This document shows positions 3 through 10,982 of a DNA stretch of 36,891 bases, piece by piece. This DNA comes from Acidobacteriota bacterium. Its GTDB lineage: Bacteria; Acidobacteriota; Terriglobia; Terriglobales; Acidobacteriaceae. The translations under genes were made by a program, and so were the position numbers. The notes below the pieces were generated by a model. That model saw only the letters and a program-made list of their open reading frames with translations. It searched no databases and was not told where the DNA came from. The stretch's first letter is position 1. Each line of letters starts with the position of its first letter. The DNA lies in assembly GCA_019241535.1 (NCBI GenBank), contig JAFAWX010000050.1, positions 1-36,891 on the forward strand, written 5' to 3'.

Positions 3-101
3 GCTCCGGCGGTACAGGTGAACTACGATTTTCACGAGAACCTGACCGCGGAGAAGATGGACAGAGTTTTAGAGGAGTACAGGAGGAAAGCAGCACAATA
101 G
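3..101 (+). CDS. nuoE: NADH-quinone oxidoreductase subunit E, C-terminal end (partial)
   Basis: Only the last 32 codons are inside the window; the gene is cut by the left edge. The readable peptide begins APAVQVNYDFHENLT and ends RRKAAQ before TAG at 99-101. The NYDFHENLT stretch followed by a charged helix is typical of the end of the 24-kDa thioredoxin-fold subunit NuoE, which carries the [2Fe-2S] cluster N1a beside NuoF. The cluster cysteines lie outside the window, so the call rests on this tail and on its place 51 bp before nuoF in the usual nuoE-nuoF order. Confidence 0.75.
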   Translation, partial: APAVQVNYDFHENLTAEKMDRVLEEYRRKAAQ

Positions 102-152: not shown

Positions 153-1472
153 ATGGCGGAACTTGTTTCCCATCCCGACGAGGTACGCATCGTCTCCCGG
201 CGCTTTGGCCAGGGAGCAACGAACATCGACCGTTATCTCGAGCTGGAGGGCTACAAAGCCGTTCAGAAGGCACTCACCATGCAGCCCGAGGCGATCATTA
301 ATGAGGTGAAGAACTCGGGACTGCGCGGTCGGGGCGGGGCGGGTTTCAACACCGGCTTGAAGTGGTCGTTTGTTCCCAAGCAGTCGGCAAAACCGAAATA
401 CATCCTGTGCAACGGCGACGAGAGCGAGCCCGGCACCTGTAAGGACCGGCTGATCTTCGAGCAGGATCCGCACTCAGTCATAGAGGGTGTCATCATCGCC
501 GGCCTGGCCGTAGGCGCGCACGTCGGCTACATCTATATTCGCGGCGAATACCGCTATCTCTCCGAGATCATGCTGCGGGCGATTGGCGACGCTTACGCCC
601 GGGGCTTGCTGGGTAAAAACATCTTCGGCAGCGGCTACAACTTTGACATTTACTGGCATGGCGGCGCCGGCGCGTACGAGGTGGGCGAAGAATCGGCGCT
701 GATGGAATCGCTCGAGGGCAAGCGGGGTGTCCCCCGCATTCGTCCTCCCTTCCCCGCCGTGGTTGGGCTTTGGGGGGGGCCCACGGTGATCAACAATGCC
801 GAGACCCTGGCCAGCGTCCCTCCCATCATTCTGCAGGGCGCCGAGTGGTATGCCCATCTGGGCACGCCCAAAAACGGCGGCACCCGGCTGTTTTGCCTTG
901 CCGGTCATGTCGCTAAGCCAGGGGTTTACGAGCTCCCCATGGGATATAACTTGCGCAAGATGATTTACGACGTCGGTGGCGGAATTCCCAATGGGCGCAA
1001 ACTGAAGGCGGTGGTACCGGGCGGCTCAAGCTGCCCGTTGCTGACGGCTGAGGAAATTGACGTGCCCATGGACTTTGACTCTCTGATGAAAATCGGCAGC
1101 ATGCTGGGCTCCGGGGGAGTGGTGATCGTTGATGACGCAACCTGCATGGTGAAGTTTGCCCTGCGCATTATGAAGTTCTACCAGCACGAGAGTTGCGGCT
1201 GGTGCATTCCCTGTCGCGAAGGCACCGATTGGCTCAAGAAGACTTTGACGCGGTTTCATTTGGGAGCCGGGTTGCGCAAGGACATCGATAATATTCAATA
1301 CCTATCGGAGAACATGCTTGGCCGGACCTTCTGCCCTCTGGGCGATGCCGCGGCGCTGCCCACGATCTCCATTGTGAAGAAGTTTCGCACAGAGTTTGAA
1401 GACCACCTGGACGGGCGCCCCTGCCCGTTTTTGAAAAGCGGGGCCATAGTAGAGCTACCAGTTTTAGCCTAG
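153..1472 (+). CDS. nuoF: NADH-quinone oxidoreductase subunit F (NADH/FMN-binding)
   Basis: NuoF is the 51-kDa entry subunit of complex I: it oxidises NADH with FMN and passes electrons to [4Fe-4S] cluster N3, on the cytoplasmic arm. The 439-residue length is normal. The glycine-rich GRGGAGF motif at residues 59-65 and CNGDESEPGT at 86-95 form the FMN/NADH site. N3 ligands are visible as C348-x2-C351-x2-C354 (SCGWCIPCREG) and C394 (FCPLG). The ATG start gives a normal N terminus; only a weak AAGG-type ribosome site precedes it. It sits between nuoE and nuoG in one transcription unit, 14 bp before the nuoG ATG. No defect is seen. Confidence 0.97.
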   Translation: MAELVSHPDEVRIVSRRFGQGATNIDRYLELEGYKAVQKALTMQPEAIINEVKNSGLRGRGGAGFNTGLKWSFVPKQSAKPKYILCNGDESEPGTCKDRLIFEQDPHSVIEGVIIAGLAVGAHVGYIYIRGEYRYLSEIMLRAIGDAYARGLLGKNIFGSGYNFDIYWHGGAGAYEVGEESALMESLEGKRGVPRIRPPFPAVVGLWGGPTVINNAETLASVPPIILQGAEWYAHLGTPKNGGTRLFCLAGHVAKPGVYELPMGYNLRKMIYDVGGGIPNGRKLKAVVPGGSSCPLLTAEEIDVPMDFDSLMKIGSMLGSGGVVIVDDATCMVKFALRIMKFYQHESCGWCIPCREGTDWLKKTLTRFHLGAGLRKDIDNIQYLSENMLGRTFCPLGDAAALPTISIVKKFRTEFEDHLDGRPCPFLKSGAIVELPVLA

Positions 1473-1486
1473 AGCGAGGAGTTTTG

Positions 1487-3838
1487 ATGGCGGATGCGCC
1501 CAAACTCGTTACCCTCACCGTGGATGGAAGAAAGGTTACTGCTCCTGCCGGCACTCTCCTGATCGAGGCCTGCAAAGCAGTCGCGGTTGAAATTCCCTCA
1601 TTCTGCTATTACCCGAATCTGTCGCTGCAAGGCGCCTGCCGCATGTGCCTGGTACGCATTGAAAAGATGCCCAAGCTGCAAACCGCCTGCACCACGCCGG
1701 TGAGCGAGGGCATGATGGTGGTGTCCGACTCGGACGAGATCCGCCAGGCCCGCAAGGCGATGGTCGAGCTGCTGCTGGGGAATCATCCCCTGGATTGTCC
1801 GGTATGCGACGCGGGCGGAGAGTGCGAACTGCAGGATATGACCTTCTCGTACGGGGCGGCGGAGTCGAAATTCATTGAACTGAAACAACACCGCGACGAG
1901 CAGCAATGGTCGCCGGTGGTCTACTTCGACCGCCCGCGTTGTATTCTGTGCTACCGCTGCGTGCGCATCTGCGGGGAAGGCATGGATGTATGGGCGCTCG
2001 GCGTAGATAACCGCGGTGCGATCTCAACCATTGTGCCCAATAGGCGCGACTACCTGGAGTGTGAAGAATGCGGGATGTGCATCGATATTTGCCCGGTGGG
2101 AGCGCTTACCTCGGGTGCCTACCGCTATAAGACACGGCCTTGGGAGATGAAGCACGTCGCTACCACCTGCACTCATTGCAGCGACGGGTGCAAGACCACG
2201 CTGGGGGTGCGCCGGTCTGAAAGCGGAATGGAGATCGTGCGCGGCGACAATCGCGATAAGGGTGGTATCAACGGGGACTTTCTCTGTATTAAAGGACGCT
2301 ACGCCTTTGACTTCGCTTCTAACGAGGAGCGCCTTGACCAGCCTCTGCTCAGAAAAAACGGCCGCTTGACTGCTGTGAGCTGGGAGGACGCATTCCGCCG
2401 TATCGGGGAGCGCTTTGCGGAAATTTGTCGCCAGAACGGCGGGCATGCCATCGGTGTAATCGGCTCTACCCGCACCAGCAACGAAGAAAACTACCTGCTG
2501 CAGAAGTTTGCCCGCATTGTGCTGAAGACCAATAACATCGATCATCACCGCACCTCAGATCTGCCGGCACTTGCGGCCGCCTTGAGCGGTAGGTCCGACT
2601 CGACGGCCACGATGAGAGACCTCTACCGAGCACCGGCGATTCTTCTCATTGGGAACGATCCGACCGAGCAGCACCCGCTCCTCGCCTGGCAGATTCGCAA
2701 TAATGTTCGCCTGCACCAGGCACAGCTTTATGTCGCCAACGCGGACGCCATCAAACTCACACGCCAGGCCCAGGCGGTCGTGGAAGTACCGGCCGGCGCC
2801 TACAACGAGTTCGCAGCATTTCTTGCCGGCGCCAGCCCGCAGCTCTCCCCGCCACAGACCTGGCATGATCTTCGCGAGAAGCTCCGCGGGCTTGAAAACC
2901 TGGTCATCGTCTTCGGGTCGGAGGTTTTCGGCGACGGGGTCGAAAGCCTCGCCCGGTTTGCCTGCGCGATCTCCGGAGCAAAGCTTGTCTCGCTCTCGGA
3001 CTACGCGAACTCGCGAGGGGCCGCCGACATGGGCCTGTATCCCGATCTGCTGCCCGGCTATCTCCCGGCGCAGTCAGGGGAAAAGTTCCGCCAGGAATGG
3101 GGTTATCTGCCGGAGCAGCCCGGTCTCGATATTCCCGGCATGTTTGATGCCGCAAAAGCGGGAACTCTGCAAGCCCTATACGTCGTGGGTGCAAATCCCG
3201 TCGGACGTCTACAGGTGGGCGCCTCCACACTGCGCAACACCTTCCTGGTGGTTCAGGAGATGTTCCTGACCGAGACCGCAGCTCTGGCCGAAGTTGTCCT
3301 GCCGACAGCCAATGCTTACGAGAAATCCGGGACCTTCACCAACACCTGCGGCGACATTCAGCTGCTGAAAAAGGCCGGCGAGGTTTCAACCACGAAGACG
3401 GATTTCGAGATGATCATCCGCATCGCCGATGCCATGGGCTTTGATGTGCACAAGCTGGTGCCCTTCGGCCGCGGGGTACGTTCGGACATGGGCCAATCAC
3501 GCGGAGCTCAGTCGGGCGAAGCCGACCAGCACAGCGTCTGGCTTGAGGCGCGCGGGCTGGAGCCGAAGACGAGTCCCCTTGACCCAATGGCCACGCTCGA
3601 TGAGATTCAACGCCTGGTGCCCGGCTATGATGTCTCCCGGGTCGAATTGCTGGCGGGAAATGATCAGCACACCTCGATCTGGACGATGGGACCGGGCGCT
3701 AGACATAACCCAGCCCTGATCGCTCCCGCGGGCAACAATCTCTTCAGCTCCGGAACTCTGGGACGCTACTCGCGGACGTTAGCTGGCGTCCTCGAAAACA
3801 GGAATCTTAGACCCGCCGAAGAGGTCCCGGCGGATTAG
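1487..3838 (+). CDS. nuoG: NADH-quinone oxidoreductase subunit G, ferredoxin-extended type
   Basis: NuoG is the large Fe-S subunit of the complex I peripheral arm (783 residues). The N-terminal [2Fe-2S] domain has C40, C51, C54 and C68. The N5 ligands are H100-x3-C104-x2-C107-x5-C113. Two complete CxxCxxCxxxC motifs follow, C152/155/158/162 and C192/195/198/202, so this is the form with a full 2[4Fe-4S] ferredoxin-like segment rather than the single N4 cluster of E. coli NuoG. N7-type cysteines C228, C231, C235 and C267 are kept, with 31 residues before the last one (27 in E. coli). A molybdopterin-oxidoreductase-like domain fills the rest. The ATG at 1487 is chosen because AGGAG lies 5 nt upstream; a TTG one codon earlier is the alternative. 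Confidence 0.95.
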   Translation: MADAPKLVTLTVDGRKVTAPAGTLLIEACKAVAVEIPSFCYYPNLSLQGACRMCLVRIEKMPKLQTACTTPVSEGMMVVSDSDEIRQARKAMVELLLGNHPLDCPVCDAGGECELQDMTFSYGAAESKFIELKQHRDEQQWSPVVYFDRPRCILCYRCVRICGEGMDVWALGVDNRGAISTIVPNRRDYLECEECGMCIDICPVGALTSGAYRYKTRPWEMKHVATTCTHCSDGCKTTLGVRRSESGMEIVRGDNRDKGGINGDFLCIKGRYAFDFASNEERLDQPLLRKNGRLTAVSWEDAFRRIGERFAEICRQNGGHAIGVIGSTRTSNEENYLLQKFARIVLKTNNIDHHRTSDLPALAAALSGRSDSTATMRDLYRAPAILLIGNDPTEQHPLLAWQIRNNVRLHQAQLYVANADAIKLTRQAQAVVEVPAGAYNEFAAFLAGASPQLSPPQTWHDLREKLRGLENLVIVFGSEVFGDGVESLARFACAISGAKLVSLSDYANSRGAADMGLYPDLLPGYLPAQSGEKFRQEWGYLPEQPGLDIPGMFDAAKAGTLQALYVVGANPVGRLQVGASTLRNTFLVVQEMFLTETAALAEVVLPTANAYEKSGTFTNTCGDIQLLKKAGEVSTTKTDFEMIIRIADAMGFDVHKLVPFGRGVRSDMGQSRGAQSGEADQHSVWLEARGLEPKTSPLDPMATLDEIQRLVPGYDVSRVELLAGNDQHTSIWTMGPGARHNPALIAPAGNNLFSSGTLGRYSRTLAGVLENRNLRPAEEVPAD

Positions 3839-3926: not shown

Positions 3927-4997
3927 TTGAGCATCTTAACTTTCATTCTCGTGTCGGTCGTCAAGATCGCCCTGGTGCTTTTCGTTCTCCTTACCGCGGT
4001 TGCTTATACGGTGTGGCTGGAGCGCAAAGTTGTGGGTCATATGCAGAACCGCTGGGGTCCGACGCGGGTAGGTCCTTTTGGGCTGCTGCAGCCGGCGGCC
4101 GACGGAATCAAGTTCCTGTTCAAGGAAGATTTGACGCCGCCACACGTTAACCGGCCGCTGTACATTGCGGCGCCCATAATCGCCGTAATATTTGCCCTGA
4201 CCTCGATCGCCGTCATCCCCTTCGGAAACTCGGTGACCATCGGCAGGATTCAAACTCCCCTTCAGATCACGGACGTGAATATAGGATTGCTGGTAGTGCT
4301 CGGCATTACTTCGCTCGGGGTATATGGGGTGGCTCTGTCGGGCTGGTCCTCAAACAACAAATACTCGCTGCTCGGCGGCCTGCGGGCGAGCGCGCAAATG
4401 GTAAGTTATGAGATTGCCCTGGGCCTGTCGCTCATCGGCGTGCTGATTCTGGCGGGCACCTTCAGCCTTAGGGGTATCGTGGATGCCCAGGCGGGACATT
4501 TCGTCAGCGGCATTGCTTTTCTCGATCATTACGTTTTGCGTTTTGTCCCGCGCTGGTTCTTCTTCCGCGGCCAGTTTGTGGCTTTCTTCATCTATTTGAC
4601 GGCTGCCTACGCGGAAACCAACCGCATACCTTTTGATCTGCCCGAGGCGGAGACGGAACTGGTGGCCGGCTATCACACCGAATATAGTGCCATGAAATTT
4701 GCCATGTTTTTCATGGCCGAATACGCGAACATGATTACCGTTGCCTGTCTGGCCTCGCTGCTTTTTTGGGGAGGCTGGAGGGGGCCGCTCTTCGGGCCCG
4801 AGTGGTTCCAGGAGATTCTGCCTTTGCTGTGGTTCGTGCTGCGGGTCTTCGTCTTTATCTTTGTTTATATTTGGGTGCGCGGCACCTTGCCTCGATTTCG
4901 TTACGACCAGCTCATGGCCTTTGGCTGGAAATTTCTGCTGCCTTTGGCGATCTTGAATCTGGTAGTGACGGCGTTGGTTGTAGCCTTGCGGGCCTGA
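3927..4997 (+). CDS. nuoH: NADH-quinone oxidoreductase subunit H (membrane, quinone-site subunit)
   Basis: NuoH (ND1) is the membrane subunit that joins the two arms of complex I and helps form the quinone chamber. The 356-residue product is hydrophobic throughout. It carries the family signatures WLERKVVGHMQNRWGP near residues 31-46, then QPAADGIKFLFKED, and ETNRIPFDLPEAETELVAGY in the fifth cytoplasmic loop region. The start is TTG, followed directly by a hydrophobic first helix; no ATG fits in frame nearby and the ribosome site is poor (GGCGGG). An 88-bp gap separates it from nuoG. In most nuo operons nuoI comes next, but here nuoJ follows after 60 bp. Confidence 0.95.
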   Translation: MSILTFILVSVVKIALVLFVLLTAVAYTVWLERKVVGHMQNRWGPTRVGPFGLLQPAADGIKFLFKEDLTPPHVNRPLYIAAPIIAVIFALTSIAVIPFGNSVTIGRIQTPLQITDVNIGLLVVLGITSLGVYGVALSGWSSNNKYSLLGGLRASAQMVSYEIALGLSLIGVLILAGTFSLRGIVDAQAGHFVSGIAFLDHYVLRFVPRWFFFRGQFVAFFIYLTAAYAETNRIPFDLPEAETELVAGYHTEYSAMKFAMFFMAEYANMITVACLASLLFWGGWRGPLFGPEWFQEILPLLWFVLRVFVFIFVYIWVRGTLPRFRYDQLMAFGWKFLLPLAILNLVVTALVVALRA

Positions 4998-5057
4998 GTC
5001 ATGCCGGTCGGCGCTCCTCGCGGCTGATCAGCGGAGCAGCGAACGAAAGGAATTTCC

Positions 5058-5579
5058 ATGCTTCACATGATTCTTTTTCTGGCTTTCGCCGTGCTCTCGG
5101 TGGCTGGGGCGGTGAACCTGCTCATTCAGCGTCACCCCATCAGTAGCGCCTTGTCGCTCGTCGTGGTCATGGGTTCGCTGGCGGTTGAATACCTGCTGCT
5201 CGGCGCCGAGTTTGTGGCCGCTGTCCAGGTGATCGTTTACGCCGGCGCCATCATGGTGCTGTTTGTGTTTGTCATCATGTTGCTCAACGCGGGTGAAGAA
5301 GAACGCACGCATGGCAGCCGGGTAGCTTGGCTGCTGGGAATTCCCGGGGTCCTCGCCCTAACCGTGATCATCTGCTGGGCGCTGGTTGAACATTCAATGG
5401 CCGGCGTCGCCGCCATCGGCGCCCTCCCCGGACCTCCCGCGGATATTGCCGAATTGCTGTTTCACGAGTTCCTGCTGCCGTTTGAGGTCACTTCCATTCT
5501 CGTGCTGATCGCCATTATGGGAGCCGTGGTGCTTGCGGCCCGCCCGGAATCAGTCGAGCAGACAAAGAAGGAGAGCTGA
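5058..5579 (+). CDS. nuoJ: NADH-quinone oxidoreductase subunit J
   Basis: NuoJ (ND6) is a small membrane subunit of complex I whose third helix takes part in coupling quinone reduction to proton pumping. The 173-residue product has five hydrophobic segments. It contains the family stretch EYLLLGAEFVAAVQVIVYAG, followed by AIMVLFVFVIMLLN. AAAGGAA lies about 6 nt before the ATG. The TGA stop is followed at once by the GTG start of nuoK. Length and pattern are ordinary. Confidence 0.94.
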   Translation: MLHMILFLAFAVLSVAGAVNLLIQRHPISSALSLVVVMGSLAVEYLLLGAEFVAAVQVIVYAGAIMVLFVFVIMLLNAGEEERTHGSRVAWLLGIPGVLALTVIICWALVEHSMAGVAAIGALPGPPADIAELLFHEFLLPFEVTSILVLIAIMGAVVLAARPESVEQTKKES

Positions 5580-5882
5580 GTGGTTCCGCTGTCCTATTAC
5601 CTGATTCTCAGTGCCATTCTGTTCGCCTGCGGAGTCACCGGCTTCCTCATTAAGCGCAATATCATCACGATATTCATGTCCATAGAACTGATGCTCAACG
5701 GTGTGAACCTTTCCTTTGTGGCCTTTGCCGTTCGCTGGCACAACCTTAGCGGCCAGGTATTTGTCTTTTTCGTCATGGTGGTGGCAGCGGCCGAAGCCGC
5801 CGTCGGCCTGGCCATCATCATTGCGGTGTTCCGTACGCGTGAGACCTTGAACATTGATCAGGTTAACCTGCTGAAGTTATGA
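5580..5882 (+). CDS. nuoK: NADH-quinone oxidoreductase subunit K
   Basis: NuoK (ND4L) is a three-helix membrane subunit of complex I. The 100-residue product reads through [20 protein letters not shown] and then [13 protein letters not shown]. The glutamates in SIEL and in [11 protein letters not shown] match the conserved membrane-embedded carboxylates used in proton transfer. It starts with GTG directly after the nuoJ stop, inside GAGAGCTGAGTG. Its stop overlaps the nuoL start in ATGA, which suggests translational coupling. Confidence 0.95.
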
Positions 5883-7999
5883 CGCCCAATCTCCATCTCT
5901 GGCTGCTTCCCGTTCTGCCTCTGGTGGGTGCGGCGATCAACGGCCTTTTCGGCAAACGGTTCAACCGGCGCGCGGTCGCTGCCGTCGCCCTCATCTTCAG
6001 CGGGTCGGCATTTTTGATCGCGCTTTGGGTTGCGTCCCAGTTGCCCAAGATGTCCTCCCTGCCCCACGTGGAAACGGTGGCGGGCTGGCTGCGCGCGGGC
6101 ACTTTCCGCGCCGACTTTTCTTTTTATCTCGACCAGCTTTCCGTGGTGATGCTTCTCGTCGTCACCGGTGTCGGATTCCTGATCCATGTCTATTCTGTCG
6201 GGTACATGTGGGAAGAGGGCGGCTATTATCGCTTTTTTTCCTATTTGAACCTTTTCATGTTCTTCATGCTGGTGCTGGTTCTTGCCGGCAATTATCTCCT
6301 CCTGTTTGTCGGCTGGGAAGGCGTTGGTCTGGCTTCGTACCTGCTGATTGGATTTTTCTTTCTGCGTGATTCGGCGGCGGCCGCGGGCAAGAAGGCGTTC
6401 ATTGTGAACCGCGTGGGCGATTTTGGCTTCTTGCTGGCGCTGTTTTTGATCATCCAACACTTCGGAACGCTTGATTTTGACAAAGTCTTTGCCGCCGTCG
6501 AGCCCTACCAGGGTGAGACCGCAGGCTTCGGCTTTCTCACTGCTATTGCACTTCTGCTGACCATGGGCGCCTGCGGCAAATCGGCGCAGATCCCTTTGTA
6601 CGTGTGGCTGCCCGATGCCATGGAAGGACCAACACCGGTCTCGGCGCTGATTCATGCCGCCACCATGGTAACCGCCGGCGTGTACATGGTGGCGCGCTCA
6701 CACGTGATTTTTGAGCGCGCACCCAGCGCCCTGATGGTGGTCGCCATCATCGGAGCGCTGACGGCCTTCTTTGCCGCAACTATCGGCATTGCCCAGACCG
6801 ATATAAAAAAAGTCCTTGCCTATTCCACGATTTCGCAGCTGGGATACATGTTTCTGGCCTGCGGAGTGGCGGCGTTTTCTGCAGGGATTTTTCATTTGAT
6901 GACTCACGCCTTCTTCAAAGGCCTGCTGTTTCTGGCGGCAGGTTCCGTTATTCATTCGATCGGCGGCGAGCAGGACATGCGCAAAATGGGCGGCTTGCGA
7001 ACTCGTATTCCGGGGACATTCTGGACGATGACGGTTGCGACCTTTGCCATCGCCGGCATTCCCCCGTTCGCCGGATTCTTCAGCAAAGACGAAATTCTGT
7101 GGCGCGCCTACCAGGCGAGCTGGGCATACTGGCTGGTCGGTTTGTTGACCGCTTTCATCACCTCCTTCTACATGTTTCGGCTTTGGTTCCTGACATTTTT
7201 TGGCCAGTATCGCGGTTCGGCCGTTGCTTCGCATAGTCATGTCCAGCCTGCCCCAGGGGTAATCGAAGTTGCCAATCAGCGCCCCAGGGTCGGGGAAGCG
7301 GAGAATGCCCAGGCTCGAGGGCTCTCCGGAACGCCTGTGCAAGAGAGCCGAGGTCACGAGCACGGCGGCATTCACGAGAGCCCCACAGTGATGCTGGTTC
7401 CTCTTGCCATCCTGGCGGTGCTTTCGCTCGTAGGCGGCTGGATTGGCGTTCCCGGCTCGCTCGGGGGCAGCAACCGTTTCGATAAGTTTCTCGGGCCCGT
7501 ATTCCGCTCGACGACCCCCGCGTTGACCCAGGAACACGAGCGTCCGGCGGAATCCGTTCCCCCGGAGCGAGAAACCGAGGGCGCGGAGCCCCAGACCGGG
7601 CATGGCACAGAATTAGTCTTTACGGCGATCTCCGTCATCACCGCCTTCGCGGGATTCGGTCTGGCCTTCCTGCTTTACTGGAAGCGCCCCGAACTGCCGG
7701 ATCAGATCGCCGCTTCCTTCCACGGTATCTATCAAGCCGTGGCCAACAAGTACTGGATCGACGAGGTCTATGCCGTCATCTTCGTTAAACCTCTAATTTC
7801 CGTTTCCGCACTTGTCTTCTGGCGGGGAATCGATCAGGGCGTTATTGACGCCACCATTGACGGCAGCGCCGAAGGCGCGCGCGAGCTCTCGGATAATTTG
7901 CGGCACATGCAGTCGGGCAACCTGCGTTCCTACGCCGGATGGGTGGCGATCGGGGCCACGGGCGTGATTGCATACATGCTTTGGGTGGGAATGAGATGA
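5879..7999 (+). CDS. nuoL: NADH-quinone oxidoreductase subunit L, with two hydrophilic insertions
   Basis: NuoL (ND5) is the distal antiporter-like proton-pumping subunit of complex I. At 706 residues it is longer than E. coli NuoL (613). Core motifs are present: [39 protein letters not shown], and [15 protein letters not shown]. The extra length lies mostly in two polar, His/Glu/Pro-rich stretches at about residues 445-502 and 531-578, between the C-terminal membrane helices and before the last transmembrane part. The lateral-helix/anchor end ([17 protein letters not shown]) follows. The start overlaps nuoK by 4 nt and the stop overlaps the nuoM start (ATGA). The family is certain; the role of the insertions is unknown. 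Confidence 0.96.
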
Positions 8000-9504
8000 A
8001 CGGACTTGACTCGGCAATTTTGACCCTGATCACGTTCGTGCCCGCGGCAGGAGCACTGCTCCTTGTGCTCGTCCCGCGACGCGATCGGGACATCCGAGTA
8101 TTCGCGCTGGGCATTTCCCTACTGGCGCTGGCATTGTCTCTTCACTTGCCCGATCATTTTCACCGCGATCAGGCGGGATTTCAGTTTGAGCAGAATGTGC
8201 CCTGGATTCCAGCTCCTAACATTCACTATCACATGGGCATCGACGGAATCTCTCTGTGGCTGGTGCTCTTAACCACCTTTCTTACGCCCCTGTGCGTGCT
8301 GATCTCCTGGCGCTCGATTCACGAGCGGGTCAAGGAGTTTTTCATTCTGCTGCTGCTGCTCGAAACCGGGCTGATCGGAGTCTTTGTCGCGCTCGACCTC
8401 TTCCTGTTTTACTTCTTCTGGGAAGCAACGCTGATACCAATGGCCCTGCTGATCGGCGTTTTCGGGCACGAGCGGCGGGTGTACGCGGCCGTCAAATTTT
8501 TCCTCTATACCATGATTGCTTCGGTTTTTATGCTGGCCGCAATCCTTTGGTTATATGCGAAAACCGGAAGCTTCGATTTCACGACCGTGCAGACGGCGAT
8601 CCGCGGCGGCGGAGTTGAAGGAATGGCGGCAGCCGCGCCGTGGTTGTTTTTAGGATTCTTCATTGCCTTTGCCGTGAAGGTTCCGCTCTTCCCCGTGCAC
8701 ACCTGGCTGCCCGACGCCCACGTCGAGGCTCCTACGGCGGGCTCCGTACTGCTGGCCGGCGTGCTCCTGAAGATGGGTACCTACGGCATGCTCCGTTTCA
8801 ATCTGGGATTGTTTCCGGAGCAGTCGCGGCTGAATGCTCCCTGGATTGCGATTCTGGCGATGGTTGGGATTATTTACGGCGCGCTCGTGGCCATGGTGCA
8901 GCCGAATCTGAAAAAGCTGATCGCCTACTCATCCATCAGCCACCTGGGATTTGTTGTGCTCGGCATCTTCAGCTTTACCTCCGCTGGGCTGAATGGCGCA
9001 ATGTTCATCATGCTCGCTCACGGAGTTTCAACGGGTGCGCTTTTTATGCTGGCGGGAGTCATTTACGAGCGGCGACACACATATCAAATTTCCCAGTTTG
9101 GCGGCCTGGCCACTCCGATGCCGGCCTACTCCACCTTCTTTCTATTTATCGTTCTCGCCTCTCTGGGCCTCCCATTGCTGAACGGCTTTATCGGCGAGTT
9201 CCTGGTCCTGAGCGGAGCTTTCCAGGCAAGGACCTGGTGGGGCGTCATCGCAACCACCGGAGTCATCTGGAGCGCCTGTTACCTGCTCTGGATGTACCAG
9301 CGGGTGTTCTTTGGCGCGGTCACGCACGCCGAGAACCTCAGCTTGCGCGACCTGGACTTGCATGAGCGCGTAGCGCTGTGGCCGACTGCGGTGATGGCCC
9401 TAGCTATGGGGGTCGCGCCGCTGCTATGGCTGAACGCCATCGCTCCGGCCGTTGACAGCACACTTGCGCCGTTTACCCAACTTGCCCGCCGGGTGGCACG
9501 CTGA
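7996..9504 (+). CDS. nuoM: NADH-quinone oxidoreductase subunit M
   Basis: NuoM (ND4) is the second antiporter-like proton-pumping subunit of complex I. The product is 502 residues from the ATG at 7996, which overlaps the nuoL stop in ATGA. An in-frame ATG at 7939 lies inside nuoL and would add 19 polar residues that do not belong to the family, so it is rejected. Recognisable blocks are FYFFWEATLIPMALLIGVFG, FPVHTWLPDAHVEAPTAGSV and LKKLIAYSSISHLGFV. The membrane-embedded Glu and Lys positions expected for this family are present in these blocks. It ends in TGATG, sharing one base with nuoN. Confidence 0.96.
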   Translation: MNGLDSAILTLITFVPAAGALLLVLVPRRDRDIRVFALGISLLALALSLHLPDHFHRDQAGFQFEQNVPWIPAPNIHYHMGIDGISLWLVLLTTFLTPLCVLISWRSIHERVKEFFILLLLLETGLIGVFVALDLFLFYFFWEATLIPMALLIGVFGHERRVYAAVKFFLYTMIASVFMLAAILWLYAKTGSFDFTTVQTAIRGGGVEGMAAAAPWLFLGFFIAFAVKVPLFPVHTWLPDAHVEAPTAGSVLLAGVLLKMGTYGMLRFNLGLFPEQSRLNAPWIAILAMVGIIYGALVAMVQPNLKKLIAYSSISHLGFVVLGIFSFTSAGLNGAMFIMLAHGVSTGALFMLAGVIYERRHTYQISQFGGLATPMPAYSTFFLFIVLASLGLPLLNGFIGEFLVLSGAFQARTWWGVIATTGVIWSACYLLWMYQRVFFGAVTHAENLSLRDLDLHERVALWPTAVMALAMGVAPLLWLNAIAPAVDSTLAPFTQLARRVAR

Positions 9505-10982
9505 TGACCCTGATTCAGACAACTGCGGCCTTGCCAGCTGCGCCCGATTATGTGCGCATCCTGCCGGAGATCGTGCTCTCAATTTTCGGTATGGCAATCA
9601 TGCTGCTTGACCCACTCATCGATGAGCGACGCGGGCAGCGACTGCTGGGCGGGGTCGCCCTGGCTGGGTCCCTGGTGGCGGTCGTCGCGACTTTGTTTCA
9701 GGCGCAACAACAGTTCTGGGGCTCGGGCTTTTGGGACATGGTGAAAGTCGACGCCTTCAGCATCTTCTTTCATTTCGTAGTTGCCGCCGTCTTACTGCTG
9801 GTAATTCTCAGCTCTTATGAGTATATGGAGGTGCAGCAGATTCGAGCTGGCGAGTACTACGGATTGCTGCTGTTTGGTGCCGTAGGCATGGACCTGATGT
9901 CCTCGGCCGTAGAGCTGGTGCTGATCTTTATAGCTCTCGAGATCTCTTCGATTTCCACTTACATCCTGGCGGGATTCCGGCGACGGTCGGCGATCAGCAC
10001 CGAATCTTCGGTGAAATACTTTCTCCTGGGATCGTTTGCAACGGCCTTCTTCCTTTACGGTGTTGCCTTGATCTTCGGCGCTACGGGGTCGACCAGCATC
10101 CCTAGAATCAGTGCGGCGCTGACGGAATACATCTCGGGCGGAGGCGGGCCGCTTTTGGCGTATTTGGGTATCGCGCTGATGTTCGTCGGCCTGGGGTTCA
10201 AAGTCGCAGCCGCGCCTTTTCACATCTGGACCCCCGATGTTTATGAGGGCGCCCCGTCACCCGTGGTGGGATTCATGTCCACGGCTCCGAAGGCAGCAGT
10301 TTTTGCCGTGCTCCTGCGCATCATGTTTCAGATCGAGGCGCCCGGCCGCATCTGGCTGATCTGGATTGCTGCCGCGCTCTCGATGACCCTGGGAAATATC
10401 GCCGCTCTGGTGCAGGACAATGTGAAGCGACTGCTGGCCTATTCCTCGATTGCTCATGCCGGCTATCTTCTGGTGGCATTTGCCAGCCTGCCAGAGAATG
10501 GCATACCCGCGGCCATGTTTTATACCGCCTCCTACGCCGCCATGAATGTTGGGGCGTTCGCCGTGGTAGGGCATTTCGCGAGCGCCGGTGAGCGTTACGT
10601 CACGCTCGAAGACTACTCCGGGCTGGGACGGCGCTCGCCCGTTCTGGCCGCCATTCTGACCATTTTTCTGCTCTCGCTGATTGGAATCCCAATTACCGGC
10701 GGGTTCTTTGCTAAGTTCTACGTCTTCAGCGCCGCTCTCCAAGCCAACCTGGTAGGTTTAGCCATTATTGCAGTGGTCAACAGCGCAGTCGCCGCGTACT
10801 ACTACCTGCGCCTGATGGTAGTCATGTACATGCGCGAACCCCGCGATGAATCTCCGGTCCCGGCCATTCCTTCCCGCCTCGGGATTGCGCTCGGCCTCAG
10901 CTTGGCGGCAACGATTTATCTCGGCATCCTGCCCGGTCGCATTCTCGAGTATGCCGCCCGCTCGGTTGCCCTGCTGCGTTGA
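9504..10982 (+). CDS. nuoN: NADH-quinone oxidoreductase subunit N
   Basis: NuoN (ND2) is the third antiporter-like membrane subunit of complex I and the last gene of this operon. The 492-residue product has the family blocks FIALEISSISTYILAGF, FKVAAAPFHIWTPDVYEGAP and VKRLLAYSSIAHAGYLLVAF, and it ends with hydrophobic helices after a short Arg/Glu loop. The ATG overlaps the nuoM stop by one base. No clear intrinsic terminator was found in the bases just after the stop. Confidence 0.96.
   Translation: MTLIQTTAALPAAPDYVRILPEIVLSIFGMAIMLLDPLIDERRGQRLLGGVALAGSLVAVVATLFQAQQQFWGSGFWDMVKVDAFSIFFHFVVAAVLLLVILSSYEYMEVQQIRAGEYYGLLLFGAVGMDLMSSAVELVLIFIALEISSISTYILAGFRRRSAISTESSVKYFLLGSFATAFFLYGVALIFGATGSTSIPRISAALTEYISGGGGPLLAYLGIALMFVGLGFKVAAAPFHIWTPDVYEGAPSPVVGFMSTAPKAAVFAVLLRIMFQIEAPGRIWLIWIAAALSMTLGNIAALVQDNVKRLLAYSSIAHAGYLLVAFASLPENGIPAAMFYTASYAAMNVGAFAVVGHFASAGERYVTLEDYSGLGRRSPVLAAILTIFLLSLIGIPITGGFFAKFYVFSAALQANLVGLAIIAVVNSAVAAYYYLRLMVVMYMREPRDESPVPAIPSRLGIALGLSLAATIYLGILPGRILEYAARSVALLR

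Follow-up and report, generated by a model that had tools for sequence, protein, structure and literature searches.

Genes for a complete complex I distributed over three loci in a soil member of the Acidobacteriota, with nuoI and nuoB outside the main nuo operon

The usual 14-gene nuo order of respiratory complex I holds both nuoB and nuoI within the operon, NuoB being the carrier of cluster N2 and NuoI that of clusters N6a and N6b. The nuo operon studied here passes from nuoH to nuoJ over a short spacer at the usual site of nuoI, which raises the question of where this gene is and whether the bacterium has a complete complex I. The window, meaning the whole stretch of DNA analysed (36,891 nucleotides), is contig C32 of a soil Acidobacteriota genome (G000), a 425-contig draft of 4.95 Mb that is 96% complete.

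Profile matches revealed an intact run of nuoF-G-H-J-K-L-M-N in the window (Table 1). Inspection of the 60 bases between nuoH and nuoJ detected no Fe-S open reading frame, and a consensus scan of the same bases found neither a terminator-like nor a promoter-like site, the sole feature being GAAAGGA, similar to a ribosome-binding site, 5' of the nuoJ ATG. The absence of nuoI between these two genes, pointed out in the preliminary description of this DNA, thus stands. The same description called the operon otherwise collinear, which holds for the run from nuoF to nuoN and fails at nuoB, also gone from its position between nuoA and nuoC. The bulk of nuoE lies on another contig, C403, the end of which is the same as the start of the window over 48 identical bases and carries nuoA, nuoC, nuoD and most of nuoE, with nuoC directly adjoining nuoA. 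This overlap gives an operon of the form nuoA-C-D-E-F-G-H-J-K-L-M-N. The displacement of nuoB could not be seen earlier because the window starts inside nuoE. Considering the clusters carried by NuoB and NuoI, the displaced genes encode the carriers of the final three clusters ahead of quinone.

Table 1. Coordinates of the nuo genes of the window and of related features in this and other genomes.
Feature	Position	Strand	Basis
nuoE 3' end (last 32 codons and stop)	3..101	+	PF01257 on both pieces (window and C403)
nuoF	153..1472	+	PF01512, PF10589
nuoG	1484..3838	+	PF13510, PF10588, PF22117, PF00384
nuoH	3927..4997	+	PF00146, 414.9 bits; only nuoH of the genome
nuoH-nuoJ spacer, 60 bases, usual nuoI site	4998..5057	+	sequence and consensus scan
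nuoJ	5058..5579	+	PF00499; ATG start at 5058
nuoK	5580..5882	+	PF00420
nuoL	5879..7999	+	PF00361, PF00662
nuoM	7996..9504	+	PF00361, PF01059
nuoN	9504..10982	+	PF00361; order and alignment with relatives
nuoI with same-strand metH or homocysteine S-methyltransferase/MTHFR gene	L006:3618-7866 (G000:C65), L210:6100-8505, L211, L220, L221, L222, L227		
Hairpin 3' of nuoI	L006:4177-4200 (G000:C65)		
Extra nuo operon	L157 (G119:C1:1423000-1442999)		
Second complex I type	L158 (G032:C1:1560000-1579999)		
Second complex I type	L161 (G019:C7)		
nuoB-nuoI-nuoB triple	L236:3643-5117 (G215:C23:82142-83616)		

A profile search of the whole genome gave a single NuoI match above the cut-off, on contig C65 (TIGR01971, 130.7 bits against 113.05), and the same protein also passes NF004537 (171.9 bits against a cut-off of 163). 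This NuoI is full-length and conserved across the family, and a motif search run over all NuoI loci collected found in it both CxxCxxCxxxC motifs for [4Fe-4S] clusters (CVACFLCAANC and CIFCGYCVEAC), with all eight cysteines. Its best solved relative is Nqo9 of Thermus (1e-42), and among the matches listed its nearest relatives carry the names Acidobacteriaceae, Acidobacteriales, Terriglobales, Terriglobia or Acidobacteria. A position within the nuo cluster, with nuoH and nuoJ on either side, is typical of nuoI without defining it; here the gene starts at about position 3618 on C65, between a divergently oriented gene for a tagatose-bisphosphate-type aldolase and, downstream on its own strand, metH, which encodes a cobalamin-dependent methionine synthase. 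It had been proposed that nuoI either lies elsewhere in the genome or is replaced by another Fe-S protein; one intact nuoI elsewhere is what we detected, and a replacement is neither needed nor supported.

The only nuoB of the genome is found by itself on C164 (238.9 bits; cut-off, 142.7). The segments GLACCAIEMM, GACATSGG and VPGCPPRPE of its product align with those of Thermus Nqo6, its best solved relative (5e-70), and the N2 cysteines are in place. All 14 subunit genes were found, with nuoA, nuoC, nuoD and most of nuoE on C403, the rest of nuoE, nuoF to nuoH and nuoJ to nuoN in the window, nuoB on C164 and nuoI on C65. Profile searches returned a single copy each of nuoA, nuoB, nuoD and nuoH, so that the genome holds one complete complex I. 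The second nuo cluster that the preliminary description suggested looking for is ruled out by these single copies, and its concern that the complex should not work without nuoI is lifted by the presence of each of the 14 genes. Judged from sequence, the complex I of this bacterium very probably lacks no subunit and functions in the ordinary way, gene order alone being unusual.

The short passage from nuoH to nuoJ recurs in independently assembled relatives, with about 83 bp in a member of the same genus (G027), 54, 75 and 39 bp in the closed genomes G017, G119 and G032, respectively, and 9 bp in G001. The gap is thus not an assembly deletion. In the genus mate, an assembly of 20 contigs, nuoA-C-D-E-F-G-H-J-K-L-M-N forms one stretch, with nuoB on a second contig and nuoI on a third, while closed G017 has nuoA at 2,415,676, nuoH at 2,422,756, nuoI at 2,127,729 and nuoB at 711,971. 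We sampled 150 family genomes, and for 140 of the 150 nuoI genes listed no nuoH lies within 4 kb. The other ten, each in a different genome, represent a distinct nuoI with a higher score, located beside a second nuoH, and these genomes have also kept the lone type. Where exactly one nuoI and one nuoH were found (38 genomes of the sample), the two genes either sit on separate contigs or are separated by at least 11 kb. Among the matches listed for the family sample, nuoB is near a nuoH in two genomes, G019 and G124, and the one in G019 belongs to a second, different type of complex I.

Additional complex I loci were observed in some of these genomes. The extra nuo operon of G119 has nuoI in its usual place and is of the type present in ten family genomes; its NuoI (CVACNLCAVACPVDC type) belongs to a separate, well supported clade in the NuoI tree, and the extra operon of the ten genomes was possibly acquired by horizontal transfer. 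The second complex I type of G019 has two tandem nuoM and a nuoI upstream of nuoH. Another second complex I type, in G032, is encoded on the strand opposite to the gapped operon, at a distance of about 18 kb.

The separation of nuoI from nuoH extends to single-copy genomes of other families, i.e., G184, G228, G247, G256 and G280 (f20), G249 (f23), G180 (f25), and G152 and G192 (f4). Since some lone calls at the phylum level overlook nuoH genes of lower score, the phylum-level claim is restricted to genomes for which every nuoH was listed; other counts hold among the matches listed or are minimum values. In a NuoI tree of 65 sequences, 27 off-operon genes form one clade (support 99/87) that spans 11 families (f1, f6, f14, f20, f23, f31, f32, f45, f57, f59 and f61), and no nuoI adjacent to nuoH falls inside it. 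The move of nuoI is thus older than the family, and the simplest reading is that the relocation would have preceded the split of the 11 families. Three off-operon nuoI genes of f4 and f25 were placed in another clade and the root of the tree is not fixed, so that a single move may not suffice. Both the tree and the counts within the family exclude that nuoI became isolated only recently, in this genome or its genus. Overall, as judged from these comparisons, the layout is old and common to nearly all family relatives and, for nuoI, to much of the phylum.

The history of nuoB appears to be another one. In several lineages with a displaced nuoI (G228, G249, G266, G272 and G172), nuoB is kept with nuoA and nuoH, which points to a later or separate departure of nuoB. 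On the other hand, nuoI and nuoB form a pair away from nuoH in G234, G277, G243, G252, G167, G269 and G215. We considered such a pair as the precursor state of the layout in the window and found it unsupported, as the paired genes belong to a different NuoI clade and nuoB is still in the operon in those displaced-nuoI lineages. In G215, a same-strand nuoB-nuoI-nuoB triple was also observed, in which an off-operon nuoI is flanked by two nuoB genes.

The surroundings of the off-operon nuoI are conserved as well. Among 80 named Terriglobia loci, metH is found 3' of nuoI in 65 and three more end at the end of a contig; in 12 of the 77 testable loci, metH does not adjoin nuoI. In another branch of the clade (G249, G266, G199, G258, G274 and G175), nuoI is followed by a gene for a bifunctional homocysteine S-methyltransferase/MTHFR, which has only the homocysteine methyltransferase domain in common with MetH. 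The plain reading of this adjacency is an inherited neighbourhood, and a functional tie of nuoI to the homocysteine-methyltransferase genes is unproven.

A hairpin was detected about 24 to 43 bases past the nuoI stop in 56 of 79 named Terriglobia loci (L071-L150), and also on C65. Its stem is near-constant (CGCCGGTCC ... GG[G/A]CCGGCG) around a variable loop, and some other loci have a variant with swapped, compensating pairs. Terriglobia spacers between nuoI and metH contain a terminator-like hairpin in 31 of 66 cases against 1.0 expected from shuffles, while an Rfam search of the nuoI-metH spacer returned no RNA family at E values up to 1. The motif is not a general repeat, as its frequency in the genome overall is not above that of a reversed control. 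It is also present 3' of a nuoI that has no metH (L150), which indicates an association with nuoI itself; its most probable role is that of terminator or 3' end of this gene. With such a role, and with metH missing next to nuoI in the 12 loci mentioned above, it becomes less likely that a nuoI-metH operon caused the move.

Considering all of this, we conclude that the complex I (NDH-1) of this bacterium is almost certainly of the ordinary kind with 14 subunits, its genes being distributed over three loci, i.e., the main operon, nuoI on C65 and nuoB on C164. NuoI and NuoB would each be expressed from a separate locus and assemble in trans with the other subunits, and the electron wire N6a-N6b-N2 would lead to quinone as in any other complex I. 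On this account, a single departure of nuoI from the operon may have taken place in the ancestor of the NuoI clade, which now spans at least 11 families of the Acidobacteriota; nuoB would have departed later or separately. The assignment of the contigs to the genome comes from the binning of a draft in 425 contigs, and the genus mate and several closed genomes share the layout. The fragmentation of this draft would also be what favours an artefact of assembly or binning, by which a nuoI truly located between nuoH and nuoJ was lost; yet relatives assembled independently, including three closed genomes, have the same junction of 9 to 83 bp, and C65 carries an intact nuoI whose neighbour gene recurs beside nuoI in 65 of 80 named relatives, which makes this explanation so improbable that it can practically be set aside. 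Equally improbable is that another Fe-S protein replaces NuoI, or that the complex works without N6a and N6b. Other 2[4Fe-4S] proteins are indeed encoded in the genome, with weaker matches on C19, C222 and C303, but these reach at most 36.7 bits, under the NuoI cut-off, and the genome has a full-length NuoI, conserved throughout the family, that retains all eight cysteines.

The position of nuoI upstream of metH in the Terriglobia, or of the gene for the bifunctional homocysteine methyltransferase/MTHFR in the other branch, could suggest that the C65 gene serves another system, e.g., a hydrogenase or a ferredoxin role in methionine synthesis. We consider this very unlikely, since the genome encodes exactly one complex I and no other NuoI above the cut-off, genomes with a single nuoH and a single nuoI are common, and the hairpin between nuoI and metH in most loci argues against an obligate shared transcript. 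A complex I with dispersed genes could also be read as a regulatory arrangement, in which NuoI and NuoB would be under separate control and limit the assembly of the quinone module (e.g., under iron or sulfur shortage), the link of nuoI to homocysteine-methyltransferase genes reflecting a shared regulatory or redox need; this extension is improbable, if somewhat less so than a role in another system.

The arrangement provides a natural case, old and fixed, of a complex I built from subunits encoded at three loci, and it cautions that the operon alone is a poor ground for calling complex I incomplete. The loss from the operon of exactly the carriers of N2 and N6a/N6b raises a testable question, namely whether the assembly of the quinone module is under separate control in these abundant soil bacteria. 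A 250-bp distance rule has been described for clustering nuo genes (PMC12361115), and short-distance clustering of this kind would break the complex I of this genome into pieces.

The dispersal of complex I genes is already known, and a study by Oppermann et al. (2022), by its title, reportedly deals with the coli complex I. In the part of the literature searched, we found no description of a displacement of nuoI and nuoB; new here are that nuoB is displaced too and that the layout is old and general in the group. Compared with the complex I of Thermus thermophilus (Nqo1-14), of which Nqo9 and Nqo6 are the best solved relatives of the NuoI and NuoB described here, the Fe-S ligands are the same, and the difference from the usual 14-gene order is that nuoB and nuoI each have a locus of their own. 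Within the phylum, Acidobacterium capsulatum 161 has been reported to express 'nuoAC' and 'nuoE-N' of NDH-I, and to have a second complex I with a duplicated nuoM (PMC11636273). The accessible text of this transcriptome study uses the term nuoA-N operon and does not mention the location of nuoB or nuoI, and its 'nuoAC' naming without nuoB fits an operon of the type described here (PMC11636273). Other families of the Acidobacteriota have an off-operon nuoI-nuoB pair, in contrast to the separate loci and the different NuoI clade of the family of the window. Beyond the phylum, Nitrospina gracilis has nuoN outside its nuoA-M cluster, on the opposite strand (PMC3578206), and is thus similar in having a complete complex I with a subunit gene apart from the main cluster. 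However, N. gracilis displaces a membrane pump subunit, whereas the bacterium studied here displaces the carriers of the terminal Fe-S clusters, a state fixed family-wide.
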